Below, one piece after another: positions 8,769 through 29,914 of a stretch of DNA of 39,156 nt. Location: the NCBI GenBank assembly GCA_002842145.1, contig PHCF01000034.1, positions 1 to 39,156 on the forward strand, in the 5' to 3' direction. Origin of the DNA: Betaproteobacteria bacterium HGW-Betaproteobacteria-6 (GTDB lineage Bacteria > Pseudomonadota > Gammaproteobacteria > Burkholderiales > Rhodocyclaceae). Positions within the stretch are counted from its first letter, which is position 1; each line of letters begins with the position of its first letter. Under the pieces are notes generated by a model. It did no database searches. It saw only the letters and a list, made by a program, of their open reading frames with translations, and was not told the DNA's origin. The translations under genes and the position numbers were made by a program.

Positions 8769-11700
8769 ATGGGATGGTTGGCGGGCTGGCTAATACAATT
8801 CAAGAGAACAACCTTCCGACGCCAACTGGCCATCCTGTTTGGCATCGGCGTCCTTGGAGTCTCCTTGCTCGCGGCATTTGCCACGTCCTGGCAAGGTAGC
8901 CGTCAGTTATATTCCAGCAAACTGGACAACGGCCTGCGCATAACGCAGACGCTCTCCACTCAAAGCCGCCTGGCTCTGGCATTTGGCTCAACCGACAACG
9001 TTGCCGAGGCACTTGAGACAGCAGCAGCCTTTCCTGATGTCACCCGGATCGAAATCCGCCACGTCGACGGGCGCGTCCTTTTCGAAAGTGGAAATGCCAT
9101 TGTCGGCGAAGTTGCCACTAATCTGCCAAACAGCGCTCGCCACCCTTATCTGCTTGCCGAAAACGCCACCGGATGGCGCTTCGTCGCGCCAGTCTGGTCG
9201 CTATCGGACCCCGATTCGCAGTTCGAGGTAACCGAGCGCAAGGACATATTGCTTGGATTTGTCATCATCGACCAGAGCAAGGCCACCCTCAACGCACTGG
9301 TTAGGGAAGTATTCGTCGTCAATTTCGCGGCCGGCCTCGCCTTCGCCCTGTTTTTCGGCATCGGCTTGCGTTTTCTGGCCCGTCGGCTGATCCGGCCATT
9401 GGCCAATCTATCCGCAACCATGGCTCGCGCCGAAAAGGGCGAAAGCGGACTGAGAGCGGACATCTCCGGCCCCCAAGACCTGGCTGAAATGGCCCATGCA
9501 TTCAACAGCATGATGGTTGCACTGGAGCAACGAGAACAGGAATTGCGCACAGCCCGCGACAGCGCCTTGCGCTTTGCCAAACTGAAATCCGATTTCGCTG
9601 CCACCGTCAGCCATGAAATCCGGACACCGCTGAACGGCGTAATCGGTACGCTCGATATGCTCAAGCTCGGGAAGCTGAACGATGAGCAACAGGAATTGCT
9701 CGGCCTGGCTTGGGACTCGTCGCAATATCTGCTGGAGTTGATCAACAACATCCTCGACTTCTCCCGCCTGGAAGCCGGCCGAATGGGCATCGATGCCTGC
9801 GATTTCGCACTCCAGCCGCTGATTGATGGCGTCATCGGCATGTTTCAAACACCAGTGGCTAGCAAGGGGCTGGAACTAACAGCGACCATCGCCCCAGCGG
9901 TGCCGAAAATTCTCAATGGCGACCCGGCACGAATTCGCCAGATTCTGATCAACCTGATCGGCAATGCCGTGAAATTTACTGAGCGAGGCTCAGTCACACT
10001 AACAGTCGAACCCCTAGAAGATGGTCGAATATTGCGATTCGGTGTGCGCGACACAGGCATCGGCATAGCCGAGGAGCACCAGTCGGTCATTTTCGACTCC
10101 TTCACCCAGGCCGATACCTCGACCACGAGACGCTACGGCGGAAGTGGTCTCGGTTTATCCATCTGCAAGCAAATCGCAAATCTGCTCGGCGGAGAGATTG
10201 GTGTCGACGGCAAACCAGGCCAAGGCAGCCTGTTCTGGTTCACTATCCCCTGCGTTACCGGCAGGCCAATAACGTTGCTTCGCCCGGATGCAGACGCGCC
10301 GGCCCTGAGCGGCTTACGCATTCTGATCGCCGAGGACAATGTCACCAACCAACTGGTTGCAGCCGGCATGTTGCGCCTGATCGGCTGTTCCAGCGCGATC
10401 GCCCGGAACGGTGTGGAAGCGGTGAGCATGTGGCAGGACGGCGACTGGGACCTCATCCTGATGGACTGCTCAATGCCGGAAATGGACGGTTTTCAGGCCA
10501 CGGCTGCCATTCGGCAACAAGAAGCCGGCCGAGGCACGCACATCCCCATCCTTGCCATGACAGCCAATACGCTGCCTGGAGATATTGAGCACTGCAAGGA
10601 AAGTGGCATGGACGACCACCTGCCAAAACCCCTGACACTCAACACGTTGACCTCAAGCCTCGAACATTGGCTGAACTGGAAACCGGACAAAGCGCTCATT
10701 CCCCAAGTAGCAAACGATTCCAGCGATCAACTGCTCGACAGTGGCGTTGTAACACGCCTGAGGGAAATTCTTGGGAGTTCGATAGGCGAGGCCGTCCGCC
10801 CGTTCCTGGAAGACATGCCTGGTTATCTTTTGGAACTGGAAACCGCCATTGCCGACGGCAACGCCGCCACGCTCCATCAGGTTACCCACGTGATCAAGGG
10901 GGCTGCCAGCAATCTCGGGGCTATTGCCTTGGCCGGTGTCGCCCGGGAAATGGAATTGCGGGCCGAGGCCAGCGATTTCAGCGAAACAAATGAACTACTC
11001 CAGCGCCTGCGGACGGAATTCGCTCTGGTCGAACCGATTCTGACAGCTGAACTGGATGGAACGTCAAGCAGCCTGCCCTCTCTACGCGAGGATGCCCCGG
11101 TTGTTCTGGTCGTGGACGACGATCGCAGCACCCGCTCCGCCCTGCGCAATGCCTTGCAGCGTAGCGGTTTCCGGGTGGCCGAAGCGGGCGATGGCAACGA
11201 TGCCTTGATCTGGCTGGAAAACAACGACGCCGACGCCGTGCTGATGGATGCCCTGATGCCCGTCATGGATGGCTTTGATGCTTGCCTGGCCCTGAAACGC
11301 CACCCACGCTGGAAAGAAATCCCGATTCTGATGATCACCGCGCTTGAGGACCGCCAATCCATCGAGCGCGCCTTCGAGGTCGGCGCCAGTGACTTCATCC
11401 CCAAGCCCATCCACCTATCTGTCGTCAATCAACGCGTGCGGCGGGTCATTGACGCCACCCGTGCCGAACGCCATGTCCAGCATCTCGCCTACAACGACGC
11501 ACTGACCGGCCTGCCCAATCGCCTGCTGTTCATGGAACAACTGAGCCGTGCCATCGAGCATGCCTCGGCCAACACGACCCAGTTGGCGGTACTTTTCCTC
11601 GACCTTGACCGCTTCAAGTTCATCAACGACACACTAGGTCACGAGGCCGGTGACAAATTGCTGGCCACCATGGCCCAGCGCCTCAAGGGTTGCGTCCGAG

Positions 11701-12797
11701 CCGACGACTGCGTGGCCCGCCTGGGCGGCGACGAATTCACGGTCCTTCTTGACGACCTGCCGAACGCCGCTGTTGCCGCCAGCGTCGCCCAGAACATCTG
11801 CCGAACGGTGTCTGCACCGTTGATCATCGATGACCAGGAAATCGTCATAACCACCAGCATAGGCATTTCGCTGTTTCCGCAGGATGGCCCTGATCTCAGC
11901 CGACTACTCCGTCATGCCGACACCGCCATGTATCGCGCCAAGCAAAGCGGCAGCGGTTTTTGCTATTACGAGGCGGCCATGGAGTCAGCTGTCTCGGACA
12001 GATTGAAGCTGGAAAACGATCTGCGCCATGCACTGGAGCGCGAGGAGTTTTCCGTTTTCTATCAGCCGGTGATAGACACCATCACCGGAAACATCAACGG
12101 CGTCGAGGCCCTGGTGCGCTGGATACACCCGGAAAACGGCATCGTATCTCCGGCCGAATTCATACCCGTTGCCGAAGAAACCGGACTCATCCTGCAACTA
12201 GGCGAATTTGTCCTGCGCAGTGCCTGCCGGCAAACGAAGGTCTGGCTCGACAACGGGATGCCAAACCTCCATGTCGCCGTCAATCTTTCCGCCAAACAAC
12301 TGGAACAGCCCAACCTGCGGAACATCATTCTCGGCGCGCTGGAGGATAGCGGCCTGCCAGCTTCGGCCCTGGTCCTCGAAATCACCGAAAGCGTGCTGAT
12401 GGAACGGGCGGCGGAAAGCATCGGCCTGCTATGCGAATTGCGCAAACTGGGCGTCCATATTTCCATTGACGATTTCGGCACAGGCTACTCCTCGCTTTCC
12501 TACCTCAAGCACTTGCCGGCCAATACCCTGAAAATCGACCGCTCTTTCGTTCAGGACATGCCGGAAGATGAAGACGCCGTAGCCATCGTCACCGGCATTC
12601 TGGCGCTCGCCCACAGCCTGCGCATGACCGTTGTCGCCGAAGGCGTTGAAACGGATGCCCAGCGGGCGACGCTGACCCGCCTGGAATGCGACTGCATGCA
12701 AGGCTTTCTTTTCTCCAAACCCTTGCCGGCCGAACTTGTCGAAACGCGGTTGTTTGCCCCCAAACGGCGGAAACGTTCACTGAAGAAGCAAAGCTGA
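8769..12797 (+). CDS. Hybrid sensor: histidine kinase-REC-Hpt-REC-GGDEF-EAL (1342 aa)
   Basis: An inner-membrane sensor that joins a phosphorelay to cyclic-di-GMP turnover in one chain. Membrane segments are at about 21-40 and 181-203, enclosing a periplasmic domain of about 140 residues; HAMP follows (about 203-256). The HisKA His is H282 (SHEIRTPLNG), followed by an HATPase (to about 500) with intact N and G boxes. REC1 has D566 (LMDCSMPEMDG), the Hpt domain H707 (HVIKGAASNLG) and REC2 D827 (LMDALMPVMDG). The GGDEF motif (986-990) is intact with an RADD inhibitory site five residues upstream. The EAL domain (E1113) has EITES, SIDDFGTGYSSL and KIDRSF, so both cyclase and phosphodiesterase may be active. 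It is the last gene of the TonB receptor/binding-protein operon; a hairpin lies 6 bases downstream. Confidence 0.93.
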   Translation: MGWLAGWLIQFKRTTFRRQLAILFGIGVLGVSLLAAFATSWQGSRQLYSSKLDNGLRITQTLSTQSRLALAFGSTDNVAEALETAAAFPDVTRIEIRHVDGRVLFESGNAIVGEVATNLPNSARHPYLLAENATGWRFVAPVWSLSDPDSQFEVTERKDILLGFVIIDQSKATLNALVREVFVVNFAAGLAFALFFGIGLRFLARRLIRPLANLSATMARAEKGESGLRADISGPQDLAEMAHAFNSMMVALEQREQELRTARDSALRFAKLKSDFAATVSHEIRTPLNGVIGTLDMLKLGKLNDEQQELLGLAWDSSQYLLELINNILDFSRLEAGRMGIDACDFALQPLIDGVIGMFQTPVASKGLELTATIAPAVPKILNGDPARIRQILINLIGNAVKFTERGSVTLTVEPLEDGRILRFGVRDTGIGIAEEHQSVIFDSFTQADTSTTRRYGGSGLGLSICKQIANLLGGEIGVDGKPGQGSLFWFTIPCVTGRPITLLRPDADAPALSGLRILIAEDNVTNQLVAAGMLRLIGCSSAIARNGVEAVSMWQDGDWDLILMDCSMPEMDGFQATAAIRQQEAGRGTHIPILAMTANTLPGDIEHCKESGMDDHLPKPLTLNTLTSSLEHWLNWKPDKALIPQVANDSSDQLLDSGVVTRLREILGSSIGEAVRPFLEDMPGYLLELETAIADGNAATLHQVTHVIKGAASNLGAIALAGVAREMELRAEASDFSETNELLQRLRTEFALVEPILTAELDGTSSSLPSLREDAPVVLVVDDDRSTRSALRNALQRSGFRVAEAGDGNDALIWLENNDADAVLMDALMPVMDGFDACLALKRHPRWKEIPILMITALEDRQSIERAFEVGASDFIPKPIHLSVVNQRVRRVIDATRAERHVQHLAYNDALTGLPNRLLFMEQLSRAIEHASANTTQLAVLFLDLDRFKFINDTLGHEAGDKLLATMAQRLKGCVRADDCVARLGGDEFTVLLDDLPNAAVAASVAQNICRTVSAPLIIDDQEIVITTSIGISLFPQDGPDLSRLLRHADTAMYRAKQSGSGFCYYEAAMESAVSDRLKLENDLRHALEREEFSVFYQPVIDTITGNINGVEALVRWIHPENGIVSPAEFIPVAEETGLILQLGEFVLRSACRQTKVWLDNGMPNLHVAVNLSAKQLEQPNLRNIILGALEDSGLPASALVLEITESVLMERAAESIGLLCELRKLGVHISIDDFGTGYSSLSYLKHLPANTLKIDRSFVQDMPEDEDAVAIVTGILALAHSLRMTVVAEGVETDAQRATLTRLECDCMQGFLFSKPLPAELVETRLFAPKRRKRSLKKQS

Positions 12798-17195: not shown

Positions 17196-17264
17196 TTGAA
17201 GCTTGTAACAAAAATCATCGCCGATCAGTCTACGCAACCACCTGATGGCAAAAGGAGACTCAGC

Positions 17265-18200
17265 ATGGTGAACATCGTCTGGATGCAAGCCGGTGCCTGC
17301 AGCGGCGAAAGCATGGCCTTGCTCTGCGCGGACCGGCCCAGCCTGGAAAACCTGCTCCAGCAATATGACCTGAACCTGCTCTGGCACCCCTCATTGACGG
17401 CCGACGTTCGTTTCGGGCAGGTCTATGAGGCGATCACCAGCGGCCATCAAAAACTCGACATCCTGTGCATCGAAGGCAGCCTGATGACCGGGCCTGACGG
17501 TAGCGGCCAGTACGACACCTGGAAAGGCCGCGCCAAGATCGACATCGTCCGCGAGCTGGCGCCGCTGGCGACCCATGTCGTGGCGATGGGTACTTGTGCG
17601 GCATTTGGCGGCGTCCATGCGGCGGGACCGAATCCGACCGACTGTACCGGCCTGCAATTTCTCAAGGACCAGCCCGGCGGCCTGCTCGGGACCGACTGGC
17701 GGGCGCGTAGCGGCCAGCCCGTCATCAACGTCGCCGGCTGCCCGGCCCACCCGAACACGATGACCAAGGTGCTGGCCATGTTGGCCGAAGGCAGCGCACT
17801 TGAGCTTGACGCGCTCAACCGGCCGGCCGCCTTCTTTTCCAGCCTCGTCCATCAGGGCTGTACGCGCAACGAGTACCACGAGTACGACATCGAGGACGAT
17901 GTGCTCGGCGGACGCGGCTGCATGTTCTTCAGCCTCGGCTGTCGCGGCCCGCAAACCCTGGCGCCGTGCAACACCGAACTGTGGAACGGCCACAGCAGCA
18001 AGACGCGGGCTGGCGTGCCCTGCTTCGGCTGCACCTCGCCGGATTTCCCGGCCAACCGCGATCTGTTCGTTACGCCCAAAATCGGCGCCGTGCCAAAATT
18101 TCTGCCGCTCGGGGTCGCCCGCGCCAAGTACATGGCCTACAAGAACCTCGCCCGCGCCGCGGCGCCTGAGAGGGTGATCAACCGAGAGATGGAGCCATGA
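17265..18200 (+). CDS. [NiFe]-hydrogenase small subunit, group 2-like, no Tat signal
   Basis: 311 residues. The electron-transfer subunit starts MVNIVWMQAGACSGESM, with AGGAG 7 bases upstream of the ATG; a TTG at 17196 in frame is less likely. There is no twin-arginine signal or membrane anchor, so it is cytoplasmic, as in sensory and group 2 enzymes. Cluster ligands by position: C12, then Glu15 where a standard CxxC has the second Cys; the Cys of GTCAAFGG; and the Cys of INVAGCPAHPN (proximal). H and C in VHQGCTR plus C in GRGCMFFSLGC (distal) and LAPCN/PCFGC (medial) are all present. The missing proximal Cys suggests a 3Fe-4S or carboxylate-ligated proximal cluster. It overlaps the large-subunit gene as ATGA. 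Confidence 0.93.
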   Translation: MVNIVWMQAGACSGESMALLCADRPSLENLLQQYDLNLLWHPSLTADVRFGQVYEAITSGHQKLDILCIEGSLMTGPDGSGQYDTWKGRAKIDIVRELAPLATHVVAMGTCAAFGGVHAAGPNPTDCTGLQFLKDQPGGLLGTDWRARSGQPVINVAGCPAHPNTMTKVLAMLAEGSALELDALNRPAAFFSSLVHQGCTRNEYHEYDIEDDVLGGRGCMFFSLGCRGPQTLAPCNTELWNGHSSKTRAGVPCFGCTSPDFPANRDLFVTPKIGAVPKFLPLGVARAKYMAYKNLARAAAPERVINREMEP

Positions 18201-19714
18201 CCCGCGTTACCGTCGATATCGATCTCAACCGCGTCGAGGGCGACCTCGAGTTCCAGCTCGACCTTGAAGATGGCGTGGTCGTCGATGCGCGCTGCATCGG
18301 TACGCTGTATCGCGGCTTCGAACAGATCTTGATCGGCCGGGCGCCGCGCGATTCGCTGGTCATCACGCCGCGCGTCTGCGGCATCTGCGGTACGGCCCAC
18401 CTCTACGCGGCGACACTGGCCCTCGAACAGATCGCCAACATCACGCCGCCGGCCCATGCCGTGCTGGTGCGCAATCTGTGCCTGATGGCCGAGACCCTGC
18501 AAAGCGATCTGCGCCAGAGCTTCCTGTTTTTCACGCCCGATTTCTGCAACCCGCTCTACGCCGGCCATCCGCTCGCTGCCGAACTGGCCGAGGCGTTCGC
18601 CCCGCTCAAGGGCAGCGTCGTCCGCGGTTGCCTGAAGAGCACGCGTGAGCTGATCGGCATCGTCGCCATCTTCGGCGGCCAGTGGCCGCACTCGACCTAC
18701 ATGCTGCCCGGAGGCATCACCCAGCCGGCCAACGCCCGCCGGTTGATGGACACGAGTGACATTCTGGCCAGCGTGCGCGCCTGGTTCGAGCAGGCCGTGA
18801 TCGGCGGCGATCTCGACGAATGGCTGGCCCTCGACAGCGGCGCCGCCCTGTTCCGCTGGATGGCCGCCAGCCCGGCGCGGCAGCGCAGCGCCCTCGGCCT
18901 GTTCAACCGTTTCGGCCGCGACATCGGCCTGCATAAGCTCGGCGCCGGCACTGGCCACCTGCTCAGCTACGGTGTCAATCATCGGCCCGACGGTGCCGGC
19001 AGCGAATTGCCCGCCGGCTTTTTCAATGCCGACACGCAGCAGGTCGAGCCGCTCGACCACCTGCAGATCAACGAGCACGTCCGCCACAGCTGGTTCCTCG
19101 ATTACCCTGGCGGCCGCCATCCGTGGGAAGGCGAAACCATCCCCGACCACCAGCCGGGCAGCGACCGTTACACCTGGGCCAAGGCGCCGCGCTATGGCGA
19201 CAAGGTGGTGCAGACCGGGCCGCTGGCCGAGCTGCGCATTGCCGGCGAAGCGCTCATTGGCGACCTGCTGGCCAGCGAAGGCGACAATACCTGGCTGCGC
19301 CAGTTTGCCCGCCTGCGCCGGGCCGGCTGGCTGCTCAATGCTACGGTCAACACGAAAAAACAGCTAAAAACAAAATTGGACGAACCGCATTTCATCGACC
19401 CGAAAATCGACGTCTGGCCGGATGGCGAAAGCTACGGCCTGGTCGAGGCGGCGCGCGGCGGGCTCGGCCACTGGCTGCGCATCAAGGATGGCGTCATCGA
19501 CAAGTACCAGATCGTCACGCCGACTGCCTGGAATGCCTCGCCGCGCGACAGCGCCGGCCGTCACGGCCACTGGGAACAGAGCATCATCGGCCTGCCGGTC
19601 GATGATCCGGAAAACCCGGTGGAGATCGGCCACATCGTTCGCTCGCACGACCCCTGCCTGGTGTGCACCGTCCATTTCATCGGTAATCCCAAAAAAACCC
19701 ATTTCAATGTCTGA
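18197..19714 (+). CDS. [NiFe]-hydrogenase large subunit with a cleavable-length C-terminal tail
   Basis: 505 residues carrying the Ni-Fe site: [10 protein letters not shown] (C61, C64) near the N-terminus and DPCLVCTVH (C487, C490, H493) near the C-terminus. The early RVEGH motif reads RVEGD. Twelve residues follow H493, so the chain looks like a precursor needing endoprotease cleavage after the His, unlike HupV/HoxC regulatory subunits, which as I recall lack the tail. The start overlaps the small-subunit stop (ATGA) with GGAG upstream, and its end overlaps the protease-kinase gene by 8 bases. Residues about 382-393 ([12 protein letters not shown]) are encoded by a copy of the dispersed repeat. 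With the kinase it is probably an H2 sensor rather than an energy-yielding enzyme. Confidence 0.95.
19341..19377 (+). repeat. Dispersed direct repeat, copy 2 (inside the hydrogenase large-subunit gene)
   Basis: CTACGGTCAACACGAAAAAA followed by CAGCTAAAAACAAAATT; two core bases differ (AC for CG). Read in the gene's frame it gives T-V-N-T-K-K, the same frame as in the three biotin-gene copies. Confidence 0.7.
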
Positions 19715-22700
19715 ACGCCTGCGCATCCTCTGTTTCGGCAACCCGTTGCACGGCGACGACGGCTTCGGCCCGGCCGTCGCCATGGCGCTGCGTCGGGTGC
19801 AGTTGCAGGCGCAGGTCGAGATTGTCGATTGCGGCACACGCGGCATCGACGCACTGCATTTCTTCGAACATTGTCCGCATGTGATCGTCGTCGATGCCAT
19901 GGCCGGCGATCAGCCCGGCCGCCTGCACAGGCTGGCGGCCGACCGGATCCCCGTGGAGAGCGCCGGTAGCGGCGGCCATGGCGCCGGTGTCGGCTACCTG
20001 CTGGCGGCCGTACGCGAGACCATGACCACACCGCCGCACATCGATGTGATCGCCGTCGAGATCGGCCCGGTCAAGACCTTCGCGCCCGGCCTGTCGCTCG
20101 AAGTGGCCGCCGCCGTCGCCGAAACAACCGAACTGATCCGCACCCGCTGGGCATCGTCCAGCTGCGCCCAGGCCTGCGAACTGAGCGGCGAACTGGAGGT
20201 CGTGCGCCAGGCCAATCAGGCGCTGGAAACCGAGCTGATCAAGAGTACCGAGGCGCTCGAACTGCTCATCGCCGAACAGGAAAGACAGCAGGACGAACTG
20301 CAGCTTCGCTCGCAGGAACTGGCCCGGCTGCACGGCGCGCTGGAACGGGCCATCGCCACCATGGCCGAAATTTTCGTCATGCTCGGCCCGGACGGCCGGG
20401 TCATCCGGGCCAACCGACTACTCGCCAGGGAACTGGGCTACGCGCCGGAAGCCCTTGTCGGCCACTATTTCGAAGACTGCCTGGGTGAATCCGACCGCCA
20501 GCAATTGCGCGACATGCTGCCGGTCAACCGGGGCACACCGCTGCTGCTCAACGCCATTCGCGCCGCCGGTGGGCGTTTCGAGGCCGAGCTCAATTTCCGC
20601 CGGGCCGATGCGCCGGCTGGCGATGAAACCGGCACGCTGCCCTATCTCGTACACGCCAGCCTGATCCACAGTCAGGCGGGAAAGCTCGAAGGCGCCGTCG
20701 TCGTCTCGAGCAATATCGCCATGCTCAAGGGCCGCGAAAAAGCCCTGCGCAACAACGAGCGCCTGCTTCACGAAACCGCCGAGGAACTGCGCAATCACCG
20801 CGACAATCTGGCCGCCATGGTCGATGCGCAAACGCAGGATCTGCGCACTGCCAAGGAGCAGGCCGAGGCGGCCAGCCAGGCCAAGAGCGAATTCCTGTCG
20901 AACATGTCGCACGAAGTGCGGACGCCGCTCGCCGCCGTCATCGGCCTTTCCGACCTCTGCCTGCGCACACCGCTCAATATCCAGCAGGGGCAGTACCTGA
21001 ACAAGATTCGCCAGGCCGCCAAGCACCTGCTCGGCATCATCAACGACATCCTCGACTTTTCGCGCATCGAGGCCGGCAAGCTGGAACTCGAGCAGGCGCC
21101 CTTCGCCCTGCCCGAGCTCTTCGACGAAATCACCGACCTGCTCATCGAGCGCATCGAGGAAAAGGAACTGGAACTCTGCATCGAGCTCGCCCCCGACGTG
21201 CCCGCCAGCTTCATCGGCGATCCGCTGCGTCTCAAGCAGATCATCATCAACCTGCTCGGCAATGCCATCAAGTTTTCTGAAAAAGGTACCCTGACCCTCG
21301 GCTGCAAGCTTGAATCGGCTGGCCATGACCTTGCCCGGCTACATTTTTCGGTGCGCGACGAAGGCATCGGTATTTCACCTGCCGAACAGGCGACGCTGTT
21401 CTCCGCCTTCAGCCAGGCCGACACCTCGACGACCCGGCGTTACGGCGGCTCCGGCCTCGGGCTGGTCATTTCCCGGCGCCTCGTCGAACTCATGGAAGGC
21501 TGCATCTGGCTCGACAGCCAGGCCGGACGCGGCAGTACCTTCCATTTCACAGCCAGTCTCCGCACCGCGCCGGAGGCCGCCCTGCCGGCAAGCGAACTGG
21601 CCGGCCGACTGGCTGCTTTCGCCGGGCGCACGGTGCTCGTCATGGACGACAACGCGCAACTGGCCGAAGCCATCGCCAAGCAGGTGCTGCAACTCGGCCT
21701 GCGGGCCGAAGTCTGCGCCAGCGGCGAAGAGGTCTTGACCCTGCTGGCCAGCCCGGCGGCCAATTACCTCGCCGCCCTGATCGACTGGCAGACGCCTTCG
21801 GGCATGGGCGGCGTCGAGACCATCACCGCCATCCGCCAGACCCTCGTCGAACGGGCCCCGCCGCTGATCCTGCTCGCCCCGCACAACAGCACCACGCTGC
21901 CCTTCATGGAACAACATCTGGCCGACGCCGTGCTGCGCAAGCCGGCCAGCCTGCCCCGGCTCTATTCGGCCCTCGCCGGGCCGCTGCAACTGGCGGCGCT
22001 GCCGATCTCTCCCCCGACCAACAGCCTGCCCGACATTACCAGCGTCCCCCACCTGCACGGCGCCGACATCCTCGTCGTCGACGACGTCGACCTCAACCGC
22101 GACCTCATGCAGGAACTGCTCGGCATGGCCGGCCTCAAGATTCGCCTGGCCGGCGACGGCAAGCAGGCAATCGCCGCCATTCGCCACAAACGCCCGGAAC
22201 TCGTGCTCATGGATTGCCAGATGCCGATCATGGACGGCTTCACCGCCACCCGCCAGTTACGCGCCGATCCGGCCTATGCCGATCTGCCGATCATCGCCCT
22301 GACCGCAGGTGCGCTCGAACACGACCGCCGACAGTGCATCGAAGCCGGCATGAATGCCCACATCACCAAACCGGTCGATGTCGACAAGCTGCTGCAGCTG
22401 ATCAGCGAGTTGCTCTCCCCCGGCCACGTCCCTGCCATCGCCCTCCCTGCGCAGACGGCGCCGGCGCTGGAACCGGCCTGGATGCTCGACCTGCCCGGCG
22501 TCGACGTGGACAAGGGTCTCAAACTGATGCGCAACAAGGTCGATTTTTACCGAAGCATGCTGATCCGCTTCCGCGACAGCTACGGCACCCGCTTCGCCAG
22601 CGACCTGCGCGGCGCGCTGGCCGACCAGCGGCATGACGACGCGCTGCGTTTCGCCCACACGCTTAAAGGCATGGCGCGCAACTTGGGCATGGACACGCTA

Positions 22701-22826
22701 GGCGACCTTGCAGCAACGGTCGAAGCCGAATTGAAAGAGGCGCCAGGCCGTGAACCGCCAACGCTCGACCGGCTATTCGCCGAACTGGCGCGGCTTGCCG
22801 GCATGCTCGACAAGCTCAGGCATTAA
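19707..22826 (+). CDS. Fusion of hydrogenase maturation protease with PAS hybrid histidine kinase (1039 aa)
   Basis: One uninterrupted frame. Residues 1-155 are an M52 HyaD/HybD-type endoprotease: [12 protein letters not shown] with metal ligand D18, VIVVDAM with D63, and [11 protein letters not shown] with H91, matching E16, D62 and H93 of E. coli HybD. A coiled coil (about 160-210) and a PAS domain (about 210-345) follow. Then come a second coiled coil, HisKA with H402 ([11 protein letters not shown]), HATPase, REC1 (DDN; D693 in [12 protein letters not shown], divergent), REC2 with D836 ([11 protein letters not shown]), and Hpt with H984 ([12 protein letters not shown]). There are no membrane segments. 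It overlaps the large-subunit gene by 8 bases. The protease would mature the hydrogenase, and the kinase would report its state. The output regulator is not identified; the phosphorelay could end in one of the REC proteins nearby. Confidence 0.93.
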
Positions 22827-22837
22827 AACCCGGAATC

Positions 22838-22875
22838 CCACGGTCAACCGGAAAAAATGGCCAAAAATGAAATGC
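22838..22875 (+). repeat. Dispersed direct repeat, copy 3 (intergenic)
   Basis: CCACGGTCAACCGGAAAAAA followed by TGGCCAAAAATGAAATG, with an exact core. It fills the gap between the protease-kinase stop (22826) and the 3' end of yaaA on the other strand. It is nearly identical to copy 1 over 36 bases. Confidence 0.8.
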
Positions 22876-22879
22876 CGCC

Positions 22880-23585
22880 TCAGCTTTCCCGGCGGCGGAA
22901 GACCCAGCTTTTCTCGTCCGACACTTCCGGCGCGAAAGCGTAGCCGTCCTCGGCAAAATCCTTGAGGCCTTCCGGCTCTTGCAACCGGTTCGTCACGGCA
23001 TAGCGCGTCATGAGGCCGCGTGCCCGCTTGGCGTAGAAGCTGATGATCTTGTACTTGCCGTTCTTCCAGTCCTCGAACACCGGCTGGACGACCGCGCCGT
23101 TGATCTTGCGGCCGACGGCGGATCGCCTTGAGCAGACGCTCGCCCCAGAAAGCGTAGAGATCCTTGCCATCCTTGTTGGCGAATTTCGTGCCCATTTCCA
23201 GCCGATAGGGCTGCATCAGGTCGAGCGGCTTGAGGATGCCGTAGAGACCGGAGAGGATACGGACGTGCCGCTGGGCAAAATCGAGGTCGTCAGCCGACAG
23301 GTTTTTGGCGGCCAGACCGTCGTACACGTCGCCATCGAAAGCCAGCACGGCCTGCTTGGCGTTGTCCGGCGTGAATGGCTGCGACCAATCGGCATAGCGA
23401 TTGAAATTGAGCAGGGCCAGCGGGTCGGACAGATCCATCAAGTTGGCGATATCGGCCGGCGACAGCTTGCGCAGTTGCCTGATCAGCGTGTCAGACTGCT
23501 TCAACCAGGCCGGCTGGGTATGTGCGGCGACGTGGGGCGGCGTTTTGAAATCAAGCGATTTGGCGGGGGACAGGAAGATAAGCAT
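22880..23585 (-). pseudogene. yaaA: YaaA (peroxide stress protein), disrupted by an internal deletion and frameshift
   Basis: YaaA limits free iron and protects DNA under peroxide stress. The N-terminal two thirds reads normally from the ATG at 23585 ([17 protein letters not shown] ... [22 protein letters not shown] ... [10 protein letters not shown]). Close to 23105-23135 the homology breaks: about 25 residues expected next, including the conserved NLASxEYF motif, are missing. The C-terminal part ([20 protein letters not shown] ... WVFRRRES) continues in a frame shifted by one base and stops at 22880. As written no complete YaaA is made; the first frame runs on with unrelated sequence to 22773. 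This is either a true pseudogene or a sequence/assembly error, since both halves are otherwise well preserved. Confidence 0.75.
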
Positions 23586-23646: not shown

Positions 23647-24804
23647 ATTTTCTCGCGCGACCGACTTTCCCGCGATGCGGCCGAACTGCAACGTCTGGCC
23701 ACCGGTCTTTCCGACTCTGGCGGCAAGCTGGAAGACGGCTACTGGGAAGCGCAACTCGCCGACGTTGTCGACAGCCTCCTCAAAAACGGCGCCGAAGACG
23801 ACATCAACACGGCGCTCGACCGCCTCTTCGAGGCCAATCCGCCAGCCCACGACGAACTGGCCGACATGGTCGAATCGCGGGCTGAAACCAACCGCTTCGA
23901 AGCCCAGGGGCAGAGCTACGACATCCAGCTCTTCGCCGCCCCCGTCCTTGCCTGGTCGCGCTTTTCCATCCCGGCCAGCACCCTGCCCAAGAGCACGCTG
24001 CAGGCCCTGCACGTCCAGCTCGGCGCCCATGTTTTCGGCGGCGAAGCACGCGTTGCACTGGCTGATTTCCTGTTCAGCCCGGACCAGTTGCCGCGCAGTT
24101 TCTGCGACACTTGGCAATTGACCAAACTGCTCGGCGAAGCCGCGCTGGCCGGCAAGCATCTCGGTATCGACATCAGCGGCATGGCCGAAACCAACCGTTT
24201 CCTCTCCGACGTCCGTTACATCGTCGGCGCTATCGCCGTGCCGCGCGGCACGCCGCTGTTCCGCTGGAACGAAAAGGATGGCAGCAAGGAAGCGGCGCTC
24301 AAGGAATGGATCAAGCAGGGCAGCCCGAATATCGAACCGCTGCTCACCGGTTGCGCCTGGCAACCGCTGCTCCCCGACTCCTACCACGCCGCCTGCCGCA
24401 ACGCTGATCGCCTCTCGCGGCCCTATTCGGTGAAGGCTTCGGTGGCCTTCCTGCAGAGCATGCTGGCGCTCATGCCGGCCGACATCCGCGCCGTCGTCGG
24501 TCCATGCTACGACCGCCGCATGGAGGAATACCGCGTCGGCCTCGGCCCGACGACCGGCGACGAGGTCTATCACGGCATCGTCTGGCCATTGCTCGGGGCC
24601 GAGGACGAAGCGACCGATGCCGCCGGCGAGATCGAAGCGGTGCTGCGCGAATCCGGGGTCAAGGACGTGCTTTTCCTCGACCATCATTTCCCGATGGAAT
24701 TCTGCGACGACTGCGGTGCGCCGCTCTTCCCCAACCGCGAAGCCGAACTGGTCCACGCCGAAATGCCGGAACAGGCGGCGGCCAGCTCGCAAGCCCTGCA
24801 TTGA
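23647..24804 (+). CDS. DUF2863-like protein, start codon unclear
   Basis: A betaproteobacterial protein of about 385 residues and unknown function. Coding-like sequence begins right after a TGA at 23644: SRDRLSRDAAELQRLATGLS, then LEDGYWEAQLADVVDSLLKN, and continues to VYHGIVWPLLGAED and FCDDCGAPLFPNREAELVHA. I recognise this as resembling DUF2863 proteins. No ATG, GTG or TTG occurs in frame before the ATG at 23866, which would cut off the conserved first 73 residues. A TTG at 23643 is one base out of frame: removing one T from the TTTT run at 23648-23651 would restore TTG-AAT-TTC-TCG-CGC. So either an ATT start is used or a one-base indel is present. The stop overlaps the bioA start. Confidence 0.7.
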   Translation: MFSRDRLSRDAAELQRLATGLSDSGGKLEDGYWEAQLADVVDSLLKNGAEDDINTALDRLFEANPPAHDELADMVESRAETNRFEAQGQSYDIQLFAAPVLAWSRFSIPASTLPKSTLQALHVQLGAHVFGGEARVALADFLFSPDQLPRSFCDTWQLTKLLGEAALAGKHLGIDISGMAETNRFLSDVRYIVGAIAVPRGTPLFRWNEKDGSKEAALKEWIKQGSPNIEPLLTGCAWQPLLPDSYHAACRNADRLSRPYSVKASVAFLQSMLALMPADIRAVVGPCYDRRMEEYRVGLGPTTGDEVYHGIVWPLLGAEDEATDAAGEIEAVLRESGVKDVLFLDHHFPMEFCDDCGAPLFPNREAELVHAEMPEQAAASSQALH

Positions 24805-26360: not shown

Positions 26361-27476
26361 ATGGACGCCACCAACGATTTTCCGCCGGCAGGAGCACCTA
26401 AAAACACCACCTGTCCCATTGCGCCGATGCTTGCTGTCGGCCCGCAACTCGGCGAAGACTCTTTCCGCCGGGTCGTCGAGTGGGCACCGAGCGCCATGGT
26501 CATGATCGACCTTGAAGGCATCATGGTGCTGGTCAATGCGCAGACCGAGCGAATGTTCGATTACGGGCGCGACGACCTGATCGGCAAGCCCGTCGAGATT
26601 CTCGTCCCCGAACGATTCCGCCAGGAACACCGGGCCTTTCGCACCGGCTATTTCGACGACCCGCAACCGCGTCCGATGGGCGTCGGTCGCGACCTGGCCG
26701 GGTGCCGCGCCGATGGCAGCGAGTTTCCCATTGAAATCGGCCTCAATCCCATTGCCACCGAAGCCGGGGTGATGGTTCTCGCATCGATCATCGACATCAC
26801 GGAGCGGCAACGCGCCCAGCAACGGCTGGAAGATGCGCTGCGCGAAAAGACCGTGCTGCTCAACGAGGTCCACCATCGCGTCAAGAACAACCTGCAGGTC
26901 ATCACCAGCCTCCTCAACCTGCAGGCCGACTTTGCCGCCGATCCACGCCTGCGGGCGATTCTGGCCGAGAGCTGCGGTCGGGTGAAGGCCATGGCCCTGA
27001 CCCACCAGTTGCTTTATGAACGGAAAGACTTTTCCCGCCTCGATCTCGGCGATTACCTCGACCGTCTGGTTCAATCGATCCGCTCAAGCTACCGGTCCAC
27101 CGGAAGCCGCATCGGCCTGCGCCTGATGTTGCCGGAAACCGAGGTACAAATCGACCTCGACCGGGCGATCCCCTGCGGCCTCCTGGTTAACGAACTGGTC
27201 ACCAACTCGTTCAAGCACGCGTTTACCGGGGAACGACAAGGCGAGATTGTTATCCAAGTAGAAGACAAGGAGGAACATTCAGTTTGCGTCAGTGTGGCCG
27301 ACAACGGGGTTGGCCTGCCGCCCGACAGTGAATTGGCACACGGATCATCTTTGGGTTTGCAGTTGGTTCAGTTGTTCGTTGAACAACTGCACGGCACGCT
27401 GACCATAGAGCGAGGAGGCGGTGTTCGATTTTCCATGTGTTTTCCGAAAAGCATGGCCGTTAAGGAGGATTTATGA
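26361..27476 (+). CDS. Cytoplasmic PAS / HisKA_2 histidine kinase
   Basis: 371 residues without membrane segments. A PAS domain (about 35-155: SAMVMIDLEGIMVLVNAQTE, ending in VLASIIDITERQRAQQRL) is followed by a HisKA_2 dimerisation domain with LLNEVHHRVKNNLQVITSLL (His171/172). An HATPase domain (about 265-365) has NELVTNSFKHAF, VADNGVGLPP and LGLQLVQLFVEQL. GAGGAG precedes the ATG by 5 bases. The stop overlaps the next start as ATGA, so the REC-GGDEF-EAL protein is almost certainly the phosphorylation partner. The 198 bases before it (26163-26360) separate it from bioA and show no gene. Confidence 0.93.
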   Translation: MDATNDFPPAGAPKNTTCPIAPMLAVGPQLGEDSFRRVVEWAPSAMVMIDLEGIMVLVNAQTERMFDYGRDDLIGKPVEILVPERFRQEHRAFRTGYFDDPQPRPMGVGRDLAGCRADGSEFPIEIGLNPIATEAGVMVLASIIDITERQRAQQRLEDALREKTVLLNEVHHRVKNNLQVITSLLNLQADFAADPRLRAILAESCGRVKAMALTHQLLYERKDFSRLDLGDYLDRLVQSIRSSYRSTGSRIGLRLMLPETEVQIDLDRAIPCGLLVNELVTNSFKHAFTGERQGEIVIQVEDKEEHSVCVSVADNGVGLPPDSELAHGSSLGLQLVQLFVEQLHGTLTIERGGGVRFSMCFPKSMAVKEDL

Positions 27477-29914
27477 GCGCGCGCTTACCGATCAGTCTGA
27501 TGCTGGTTGAAGACGAGCGGATTGTTGCCTTTGATTTGAAGCGCCAGTTGCAAGCCTTTGGCTATGCTGTCGACAGCGTTGTCGCCAGTGGCGAACAAGC
27601 CCTCAGCAAAGCAGCCGAAAACAAGCCCGACCTGGTCCTCATGGACATCCACCTGGAGGGCGGCATGGACGGCATCGAAGCCGCCACGGCGATTCGTGCC
27701 CACCACAATATCCCCGTGATTTTCCTGACCGCCTACGCCGAAGATGACACCTTGCGGCGCGCTCTGGACAGCCGCCCCTTCGGCTATCTGATCAAACCAT
27801 GCGAAGGACGGGAATTGCATGCCACGATCCAGATGGCCCTGGCCCGCCGGGAAGATGAACAGGCCGTCGAACAAAGCGAACAGCGCCTCAAGCTGGCGCT
27901 CGATGCGGCCTCGCTCGGCGTCCTGGAATGGTGTCCGCTATCGAACCGGATGAAAGGCGACGTCTACCTCGGCATGCTGTTTGGCAACCGGCCGCAACCG
28001 CTCGATGAGCCTTGGGAGACCTTCATAAACCGGGTCGACGAAGCCGACCGGGAACGGGTCAGCAACGCACTGACTTCAAAGTTGCCGGACAGCGAAGCCG
28101 TCAGTGTCGAGTTTCGACTCGCCGACAGCGCCGGCCCCATTCGCCGCATGGAAGCGCACGCCAAGGCCTATGGCACGGGCGACCTTGTTCAACGTGTGGT
28201 CGGCATTCTTCAGGACGTGACCCAGCGCCATCTTGACGAAACCATGCTGCGCCAATCGAGCGTGGTCTTTCGCACCACGGCGGAGGCCATCGTGATCACC
28301 GACGCCAGGCACCTGATCGTTGCCGCCAACAACGCCTATTCGCGTATCACCGGATACCAGGAAGATGAAGTGCTCGGCCTTGACCCGGACATACTGCTGC
28401 GTGTCAGCCCGACATTTGAGCAATACGAAGACTGCTTCAAGGACGGTTCGGAAGGGTTCTGGCAAGGCGAGGTACGCTGTCGCCGCCGCGACGGCAGCGA
28501 ATTTCCCGCCTGGCAAAGCGTCAGCGTCGTGCGCGACACCGATGGCCTGGCAACGCATTTCGTTACCGCGTTTTCCGATGTCACGGCAATTTACGATGCC
28601 CAGCAAAAGCTGCAACACCTGGCGCATCATGACCCGCTGACCGGTTTGCCCAACCGCGTCTTGTTCGATCAACGACTCCAGTACGCCATCGAGCAGGCCA
28701 TTCGTAATGAACAACGCTGTCTCTTGCTCTTTCTTGATCTTGACGGCTTCAAGGTGATCAACGACACGCTCGGCCACGCCGTCGGCGACGAATTGCTGCG
28801 TGTCGTCAGCGACAGGTTGCGCGGCGTCCTGCGCAGCAGCGACACGATCGCCCGACTCGGGGGTGACGAATTCGTGATTCTGGCCGGCAGTTTCAACCCG
28901 GATTACGCGACACTATTGGCCGATAAAATCCTGGACCAGTTGCGCGTCCCCATCACCGTTTCCGGCCAATCGCTTTCCGTCACCGGCAGTATCGGAATCG
29001 CGGTGTATCCGGACAACGGCGCCGATAGTCAGGAATTGATGCGCGCCGCCGACATGGCGATGTACACGGCCAAAGCCGAGGGGCGCAACCGCTCTCATTT
29101 CTACGCCAAGGACATGTCGGAGCGGGCCCACCAGCGCATGGAGATCGAGCAGGGCCTGCGCCGCGCCCTGGGAACCGACGGCCTGGTCGTGCACTACCAA
29201 CCACGCGTCGATCTGGCCAGTCGCCGGATCGTTGGAGTAGAGGCTTTGGTGCGCTGGCAGCATCCGGAACGCGGCATGATTTCGCCGGCAAACTTCATCG
29301 GCATCGCCGAGGAATGTGGAATCATCGAACAACTGGGTCGCTGGGTATTGAATCGCGCCTGCTGCGAAATGCACGAGATTGTCCGGAGCATGCCGGCCGG
29401 CGAAATCTTCCACGTCGCCGTCAACGTTTCGGCTCGACAATTCCTCGGCGCTGATTTCGTCGCCATCGTCCGTTCAGTGCTCGGTGAAACCGGCTTTCCA
29501 GCCAGTGCCCTCGAACTGGAAATCACCGAAAGTACGCTACAGGCCACCGAACGGAGTTTGTCCATACTCCGCGACCTTGAGAACCTGGGCGTTGCCGTCA
29601 GCATCGATGACTTCGGGACTGGCTATTCGTCCCTGAGCGTGTTGCGCGACCTGCCCATACAGCGCATCAAGATTGATCGTTCTTTCATCGTCGATCTGCC
29701 CGCCAGCCAGAATCAACGGGCCGTCGTCGAAGCCATTGTCGCGTTAAGCAGGGCCATGTTCATGCAGATTACCGTCGAGGGGATCGAGCACGAAGATCAG
29801 GCCACCACCTTGCTCGAACTGGGTTGCCAGGAAGGCCAGGGATACTTGTTTGCCCGACCGCTTCCCCTCGTCGACTTGCGGAAACGTCTCGGCAGGAGAT
29901 TGATCACCGAATAA
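27473..29914 (+). CDS. Response regulator REC-PAS-PAS-GGDEF-EAL
   Basis: 813 residues. REC (about 7-125) has E13/D14, phosphoacceptor D58 (LVLMDIHLEGG), T87 and K108. Two PAS-like segments follow (about 140-255 and 260-375, the second with ITGYQEDEVLGLDP). The GGDEF domain keeps an intact motif (463-467) with the inhibitory RSSD site (454-457) five residues upstream. The EAL domain (E590, then EITEST, SIDDFGTGYSSL, KIDRSF, QGYLFARPL) is also intact. It should make and break cyclic-di-GMP under control of the overlapping kinase gene and of ligands at the PAS domains. It overlaps that gene by 4 bases. The following 250-base gap carries the FNR-type promoter of the next operon. Confidence 0.95.
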   Translation: MSARLPISLMLVEDERIVAFDLKRQLQAFGYAVDSVVASGEQALSKAAENKPDLVLMDIHLEGGMDGIEAATAIRAHHNIPVIFLTAYAEDDTLRRALDSRPFGYLIKPCEGRELHATIQMALARREDEQAVEQSEQRLKLALDAASLGVLEWCPLSNRMKGDVYLGMLFGNRPQPLDEPWETFINRVDEADRERVSNALTSKLPDSEAVSVEFRLADSAGPIRRMEAHAKAYGTGDLVQRVVGILQDVTQRHLDETMLRQSSVVFRTTAEAIVITDARHLIVAANNAYSRITGYQEDEVLGLDPDILLRVSPTFEQYEDCFKDGSEGFWQGEVRCRRRDGSEFPAWQSVSVVRDTDGLATHFVTAFSDVTAIYDAQQKLQHLAHHDPLTGLPNRVLFDQRLQYAIEQAIRNEQRCLLLFLDLDGFKVINDTLGHAVGDELLRVVSDRLRGVLRSSDTIARLGGDEFVILAGSFNPDYATLLADKILDQLRVPITVSGQSLSVTGSIGIAVYPDNGADSQELMRAADMAMYTAKAEGRNRSHFYAKDMSERAHQRMEIEQGLRRALGTDGLVVHYQPRVDLASRRIVGVEALVRWQHPERGMISPANFIGIAEECGIIEQLGRWVLNRACCEMHEIVRSMPAGEIFHVAVNVSARQFLGADFVAIVRSVLGETGFPASALELEITESTLQATERSLSILRDLENLGVAVSIDDFGTGYSSLSVLRDLPIQRIKIDRSFIVDLPASQNQRAVVEAIVALSRAMFMQITVEGIEHEDQATTLLELGCQEGQGYLFARPLPLVDLRKRLGRRLITE

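Follow-up and report, generated by a model that had tools for sequence, protein, structure and literature searches.

Our literature comparisons draw on passages of four source papers (PMC5037454, PMC4853749, PMC10073562 and PMC6883350). In these passages the HydDB scheme gives group 2b [NiFe]-hydrogenases as histidine-kinase-linked and group 2c as 'Diguanylate cyclase-linked (putative)'; HoxC of the regulatory hydrogenase is described as having no C-terminal extension and needing no proteolysis, and the Rieske-type protein HucE is proposed to accept electrons from Huc, a 2a hydrogenase. The window of this study, 39,156 nucleotides of contig PHCF01000034.1 from Betaproteobacteria bacterium HGW-Betaproteobacteria-6, carries an operon for a 2c-like hydrogenase in which the maturation protease is the N-terminal domain of a hybrid histidine kinase. 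How a regulatory hydrogenase signals H2 to its kinase is, to our knowledge, not settled, and a natural fusion may reveal how sensors of this kind are put together and how their state is read.

A maturation protease fused to a hybrid histidine kinase

All features of the operon lie on the forward strand. An earlier note on this DNA had described three overlapping genes, the last encoding a 1039-residue chain, and translation confirms this arrangement: the genes of the small subunit (SSU; 17265..18200, 311 aa) and the large subunit (LSU; 18197..19714, 505 aa) overlap by 4 bases, and the latter overlaps the fusion gene (19707..22826) by 8 bases. A Shine-Dalgarno-like AAGGAG stands 5' of the small-subunit ATG (17252..17257). 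Pfam assigns Oxidored_q6 and NiFe_hyd_SSU_C to the SSU and NiFeSe_Hases to the LSU; in the long chain it finds HycI (E 2e-15), PAS_9, HisKA, HATPase_c, two Response_reg stretches and Hpt, which is the domain order given in the earlier note, and the HycI profile scores 57 bits against a curated cut-off of 23. The M52/HycI maturation protease domain comprises residues 1-145 (19707..20141) and is followed by a long helix or coil (residues 156-218, 20172..20360) whose homologue opens the separately encoded transducers, a PAS domain (approximately residues 222-340, 20370..20726), a HisKA domain (H402; 20880..21077), a HATPase_c domain (21216..21560), a weak first receiver domain (21633..21965) whose D693 some fused relatives lack, a second receiver domain (D836, K888; 22068..22403) and an Hpt domain (H984; 22599..22817). 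The H-box, N-box, receiver Asp and Hpt His of a hybrid-kinase phosphorelay are all present.

A search of the PDB with a profile built from the fused protease retrieved structures of HybD and HycI, and a model of residues 1-345 (mean pLDDT 84, pTM 0.45), which contains the protease, helix 156-218 and the PAS domain, has HycI (5zby) and HybD (1cfz) as its top fold matches. The metal site of HybD (Glu16, Asp62 and His93) has its counterpart in D18, D63 and H91. In the model a short loop of low confidence (residues 150-155) is the sole segment that separates the last protease helix from helix 156-218; a full-length model (mean pLDDT 71.5, pTM 0.40) does not reliably give the packing of the domains. 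Four in-frame start codons lie inside the fusion gene between 20100 and 20420, and a GGAGG precedes the GTG at 20202 with a spacing of just 2 bases; a second, shorter product starting at this GTG is unlikely.

Occurrence and conservation of the fusion

An LSU of the fusion type (E <= 1e-160) was found in 16 of the 76 genomes of the window's genus, and in 15 of these 16, our own included, protease and kinase form a single open frame; four of the fifteen are single-contig assemblies (G048, G467, G471, G478), and in the sixteenth genome (G034) the two genes are separate. Two further fused loci bring the total to 17: one in the same genus (G058), first found through HycI, in which the LSU is cut by the contig end, and one in another genus of the family (G1065), whose contig ends after the PAS domain. 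The earlier note had proposed to look for conserved fusions of protease and kinase next to group 2 hydrogenases; such a fusion exists, and Dechloromonas agitata is5 is a named genome that carries it. The other 29 loci fetched from other genera of the family have a separate HycI frame in all cases except L185, which has none nearby. These non-fused loci sit in other clades of the LSU tree (L167, L174 and L175 being too partial to be placed), while the fused loci, 16 of the 17 being used, form one clade with support 100/100. The earlier note had named a stop or frameshift between protease and coil as a refuting result; the long frame is kept in 14 other genomes of the genus. The other refuting result that it named, separate genes in close relatives, turned up in part, in G034 and in other genera; since the loci of the other genera occupy other clades, however, the fusion is better read as derived and clade-specific than as false. 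The group in which the natural fusion is conserved is that of the relatives of Dechloromonas and Azonexus.

The three metal-site residues D18, D63 and H91, noted as intact at the outset, are invariant in all 17 fused homologues, and the H-box His (H402) is likewise kept in 17/17; the second-receiver Asp (D836) and the Hpt His (H984) are kept in all 16 rows that reach them. In six hand-picked pairs of the 120, NG86 dN/dS is 0.11-0.31 for the protease and 0.00-0.17 for the linker; in five pairs the linker value does not exceed the protease value, and in the sixth it is 0.17 vs 0.16. Mean pairwise identity over the 120 pairs is 0.65 for the linker and 0.70 for the protease.

More widely, no HycI match other than that of the window lies in a frame of more than 700 aa in a 398-genome sample of the phylum (own genome included). 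Shorter HycI-containing frames in this sample include others of 545-663 aa; in one locus (L191), which adjoins another hydrogenase type, Pfam finds HycI followed by HypF C-terminal domains, and L192 and L193 look alike by eye. A 682-residue HycI-matching frame in G082 (L194) overlaps an LSU frame. In a further LSU search three genomes (our own, G348 and G167) were taken as 2c-branch; the other 24 matches had E values of 1e-129 to 1e-106, and two of them were opened (L133 in G144 and the second match of our own genome, L189). A plasmid search with the protease-linker part returned one record, from Ideonella dechloratans, in which the genes are separate. In the literature searched, judged from listings and passages and with many journals outside its coverage, no HycI-kinase fusion was recognised; one hit, PMC11934962, concerns separate genes. 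A second hybrid histidine kinase is encoded directly 3' of the fusion gene in L039 and L042, and the start of one is present in L035.

Class of the hydrogenase

Sixty 2c-branch loci were collected, loci fetched twice from one contig being counted once. They are not independent: eleven (L034-L043, L046) were first fetched through HycI, ten of which the LSU search also found, and the remaining nine of the 20 loci fetched in that way (L044, L045, L047-L053) belong to other hydrogenase types or had no clear match and are not counted. A first LSU tree, made without the partial LSUs of L043, L167, L174 and L175, resolves three groups: the fused loci (16 rows, 100/100), kinase-linked loci (15 rows, 100/98) and GGDEF-EAL-linked loci (7 rows, 94/96). 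A second tree combined 27 of the 60 2c-branch loci with L133, Ideonella and eight further references, the reference LSUs being taken from named plasmids and our own genome and their 2a, 2b and 1d labels being ours, from annotation and neighbours, not from HydDB. Here 28 2c-branch rows form one clade (96/93) that contains the GGDEF-EAL-followed enzymes of Methylomonas, Methylocystis, Methylosinus and Ideonella; three 2a-type rows (100/100) stand beside this clade, and five 2b rows (100/99), Cupriavidus necator HoxC included, stand apart. The fused and kinase-linked clades are sisters (98/98). The hydrogenase is thus 2c-like by its sequence relationships, grouping with the diguanylate-cyclase-linked enzymes.

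The L2 motif of the window LSU lies at 19643..19675. Across the 60 loci the 11 residues of this motif take one form in 39 and another in 3, and the remaining 18 have SFDxCLVC (nine of them with TVH); in the source passages the 2c consensus is SFDxCLVCTVH and the Thiomargarita sequence SHDaCLVCTVH. The earlier note had given group 2c as kinase-linked, which differs from those passages, where it is 2b that is linked to a histidine kinase. The output of the window's operon is a hybrid kinase and not a linked diguanylate cyclase, and we therefore assign the hydrogenase to a kinase-linked branch that is related to 2c but lies outside 2c in the strict sense.

Assignment to the 2b regulatory class is ruled out by the tree, which places the enzyme outside the HoxC/HupV clade, by its LSU tail and by its SSU motif. 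The tail is a predicted cleavable stretch of 12 residues (19676..19711), its cleavage being expected from the operon's protease. Tailless 2b LSUs, which end at the L2 histidine, are found in four references and in L133. Of the 60 2c-branch LSUs, 59 carry a tail (12 residues long in 41), and a HycI frame adjoins the LSU gene in 58 of 60; the sole tailless member, L185, is also without an adjacent protease, an apparent parallel to HoxC. Because tail and adjacent protease occur together in this branch, the fused protease has a plausible substrate in its own operon. It is probably still an active maturase. In the SSU, the second Cys of the proximal-cluster CxGC is replaced in all 58 2c-branch sequences (D in 46, E in 12; CSGE in the window); this position is C in the 2b references (CGGC) and N in the three 2a-type references and in Huc.

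A shared coil-PAS module behind different N-terminal parts

In the sister clade of kinase-linked enzymes the protease is encoded separately, and most of the kinases begin with a Rieske domain. Its CxH...CxxH motif is intact in 11 of the 17 loci (L046, L159-L161, L164-L166, L168, L169, L172, L175), degenerate in three (L170, L171, L173), and the whole domain is absent in three (L162, L163, L174); L174 and L175 are outside the tree, and the sequence of L167 stops short of a transducer gene. L169 encodes its Rieske-PAS and kinase portions in two frames. A Rieske-PAS-GGDEF-EAL transducer occurs in G493, and L121 has an N-terminal Rieske domain on a GGDEF-EAL protein beside a 2c-like hydrogenase. 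Since HucE is proposed as the electron acceptor of Huc, a Rieske domain on the transducer suggests an electron read-out in the sister clade, and the Rieske [2Fe-2S]-bearing transducers beside 2c-like hydrogenases are candidates for direct electron read-out of H2.

The transducers of methanotrophs (L063, L065, L067, L069) carry no appendage and start directly with the coil. The coil-PAS start aligns across ten transducers of the fused, Rieske-kinase and GGDEF-EAL kinds; identity to the window is 72% in Dechloromonas agitata, 25-32% in seven others and 20% in L124, and the row of L164, cut too early, covers little of the PAS domain. The protease of the fused clade takes the place that the Rieske domain holds in the sister clade, directly before the homologous coil. 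Where protease and transducer genes are separate they may still be close neighbours, as in two Methylomonas loci (overlaps of 4 and 8 bases) and in Ideonella (9 bases apart).

Proposed mechanism and alternative explanations

It is proposed, as the reading that we hold to be reasonably probable, that the operon encodes a putative H2-sensing 2c-branch hydrogenase together with a phosphorelay kinase to which the hydrogenase's own maturation protease is tethered. The observed fusion, its conservation within one clade, the intact motifs, the retained LSU tail, the low dN/dS and the coil-PAS homology are what this proposal builds on. The hydrogenase would be cytoplasmic and probably sensory, H2 sensing being suggested by its kinship; the maturation endopeptidase would have become the N-terminal domain of the kinase when two neighbouring genes fused once, in the ancestry of Dechloromonas and Azonexus. 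After nickel insertion the fused protease would remove the 12-residue tail of the LSU, and the tether would carry the kinase to each maturing LSU, with joint assembly of sensor and kinase as the result. From the assembled hydrogenase the H2 signal would most likely enter the coil-PAS module common to the compared transducers, run on through HisKA, REC and Hpt, and reach a response regulator encoded elsewhere. For proteolytic activity, H2 sensing, docking, the direction of signalling and the downstream regulator alike, these are steps that we infer.

Several points weigh against this proposal. The role of the hydrogenase could be enzymatic instead of sensory. No response regulator is found among the direct neighbours of the fusion operon. 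Our genome already has a 2b-type regulatory hydrogenase, so the fused system would be a second sensor or would report something else. The LSU of L127 has a tail and no adjacent protease, even though a second copy of the system in its genome has one. The model of residues 1-345 falls below pLDDT 50 at 149-159 and at 86-92, around H91, and the active-site loop is therefore without a confident model. The first receiver keeps its Asp in 13 of the 17 fused loci, with H at this position in one and a gap in three, and in the six pairs given above dN/dS rises to 0.27-0.38 in the first receiver and to as much as 0.50 in Hpt. The alternatives considered below overlap with the proposal and with one another, and their probabilities do not sum to one.

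That the fusion is a neutral one of the Rosetta-stone kind, giving co-expression only, with the two halves working independently as they do in other genera, is possible, if on balance rather doubtful. The adjoining protease and transducer genes elsewhere imply that a small change could join them; the open junction is nevertheless kept in 15 of the 16 same-genus genomes, and the linker evolves at or below the protease dN/dS in five of the six pairs, although this reflects constraint on the coil and not on the covalent join.

A bolder reading, which we regard as tentative and somewhat unlikely, makes the protease itself the input of the kinase: having cut the tail, it would remain on its own hydrogenase and pass on the condition of the nickel site, which would merge maturation, assembly and sensing into a single event, and the family would share a coil-PAS module with an exchangeable hydrogenase-facing N-terminal part (none, a Rieske electron acceptor or a protease) and exchangeable outputs. 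The narrower version, with the protease domain docked on the LSU after the tail is cut and acting as the reader, the kinase being driven by its conformation or by the bound nickel state, appears unlikely. The position of the protease immediately before the homologous coil, where the sister clade has its Rieske domain, agrees with docking, as do the short loop 150-155 that alone separates the last protease helix from helix 156-218 and the conservation of the linker, which nearly equals that of the protease. On the other hand, HycI-type proteases as a rule leave the LSU after cleavage, and coil-first transducers without an appendage are found in the methanotrophs and, by eye, in the kinase loci L162, L163 and L174. 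The protease need not be the reader, since transducers without any N-terminal appendage exist; the role of reader that the earlier note gave to it is accordingly not favoured, homologous coil-PAS transducers being found without a protease.

It is improbable that the kinase reports the maturation of the hydrogenase (nickel insertion and removal of the tail) in place of H2. Proteases of this family as a rule act solely on nickel-loaded precursors, the metal-site residues are invariant, and the 2b-type regulatory hydrogenase in the genome would leave room for such a role; yet the non-fused relatives still have a transducer after the hydrogenase and protease genes, and SSU and LSU keep L1, L2 and cluster motifs that would be superfluous for a pure nickel check. 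A sequencing or assembly artefact, to which the broken yaaA frame adjoining the operon in this assembly might point, has a negligible chance and is refuted together with mere coincidence, because the same long fused frame is conserved in 14 other genomes of the genus and four of the fifteen are single-contig.

The proposed tethering of protease to kinase, on which we settle, suggests that the outputs of putative 2c-type sensors include phosphorelay kinases in addition to c-di-GMP enzymes. The fusion, its Rieske-bearing relatives and its appendage-free relatives form a comparative set for the choice between electron-based and conformational read-out, and the same set suits the question whether assembly and sensing are coupled.

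Genome context

The direct neighbours of the operon are hydrolase, PIN and Dus genes on one side and yaaA, DUF2863 and bioA genes on the other. The yaaA gene (22773-23585, reverse strand) departs from the family frame after about residue 157, as a broken gene or an assembly error. In the DUF2863 gene (23866-24804) the conserved part extends upstream in frame, the listed frame beginning late; the first residues and start codon of its relatives are replaced, and a stop lies just 5' of the conserved part. Farther away, a HisKA_2/HWE-type PAS kinase (26361-27476) overlaps by 4 bases the next gene, which encodes a REC-PAS-GGDEF-EAL protein (27473-29914) and is separated from the hydrogenase operon by unrelated genes. 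A substrate-binding-protein gene is followed by 8769-12797, which encodes 1342 residues with the domains HAMP-HisKA-HATPase-Hpt-GGDEF-EAL and two receiver stretches.

Elsewhere in the genome, the cluster of the 2b-type regulatory hydrogenase also encodes a PAS-HisKA kinase; an uptake-type hydrogenase is accompanied by two stand-alone HycI proteases. The 2b-type regulatory hydrogenase is adjoined by a 1033-residue frame (L189:16111-19212, contig C182) that may be a second fusion of maturation and regulator parts, with HypX-like formyltransferase parts and a REC-sigma54-HTH regulator in one chain; the lengths of such frames vary across the genus.

Comparison with known systems

Among the nearest described counterparts is HydDB group 2c, whose members are putative H2 sensors and with which the window's system shares its LSU phylogeny and, as in 58 of the 60 loci of the branch, the protease gene beside the LSU. 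Its L2 motif is close to the consensus of the source passages and one residue from the Thiomargarita sequence given there. It differs from group 2c in that its output is a hybrid histidine kinase and not a diguanylate cyclase, and in that the protease is fused to this kinase. With the group 2b systems HoxBC/HupUV and HoxJ/HupT it has in common a hydrogenase beside a PAS histidine kinase, whereas the 2b LSUs are tailless without proteolysis, the 2b SSU has CGGC and the 2b enzymes form a separate clade. We know of no protease domain in HoxJ or HupT.

The protease domain resembles the M52 proteases HycI and HybD in fold, in profile match and in the three metal-site residues; they are separate short proteins, whereas that of the window is fused. 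The Rieske-PAS-PAS histidine kinases of the sister clade (L046, L159-L166, L168-L175) have the same operon order and a homologous coil-PAS start, but their protease is separate, and 11 of the 17 carry a Rieske motif at the kinase N-terminus. Huc, the 2a enzyme associated with HucE, offers the nearest solved structures by sequence for both subunits and has the identical proximal-cluster cysteine replaced, by N in Huc and by D or E in the 2c branch; it is, however, an uptake enzyme, and the 2a-type references fall in a separate clade.

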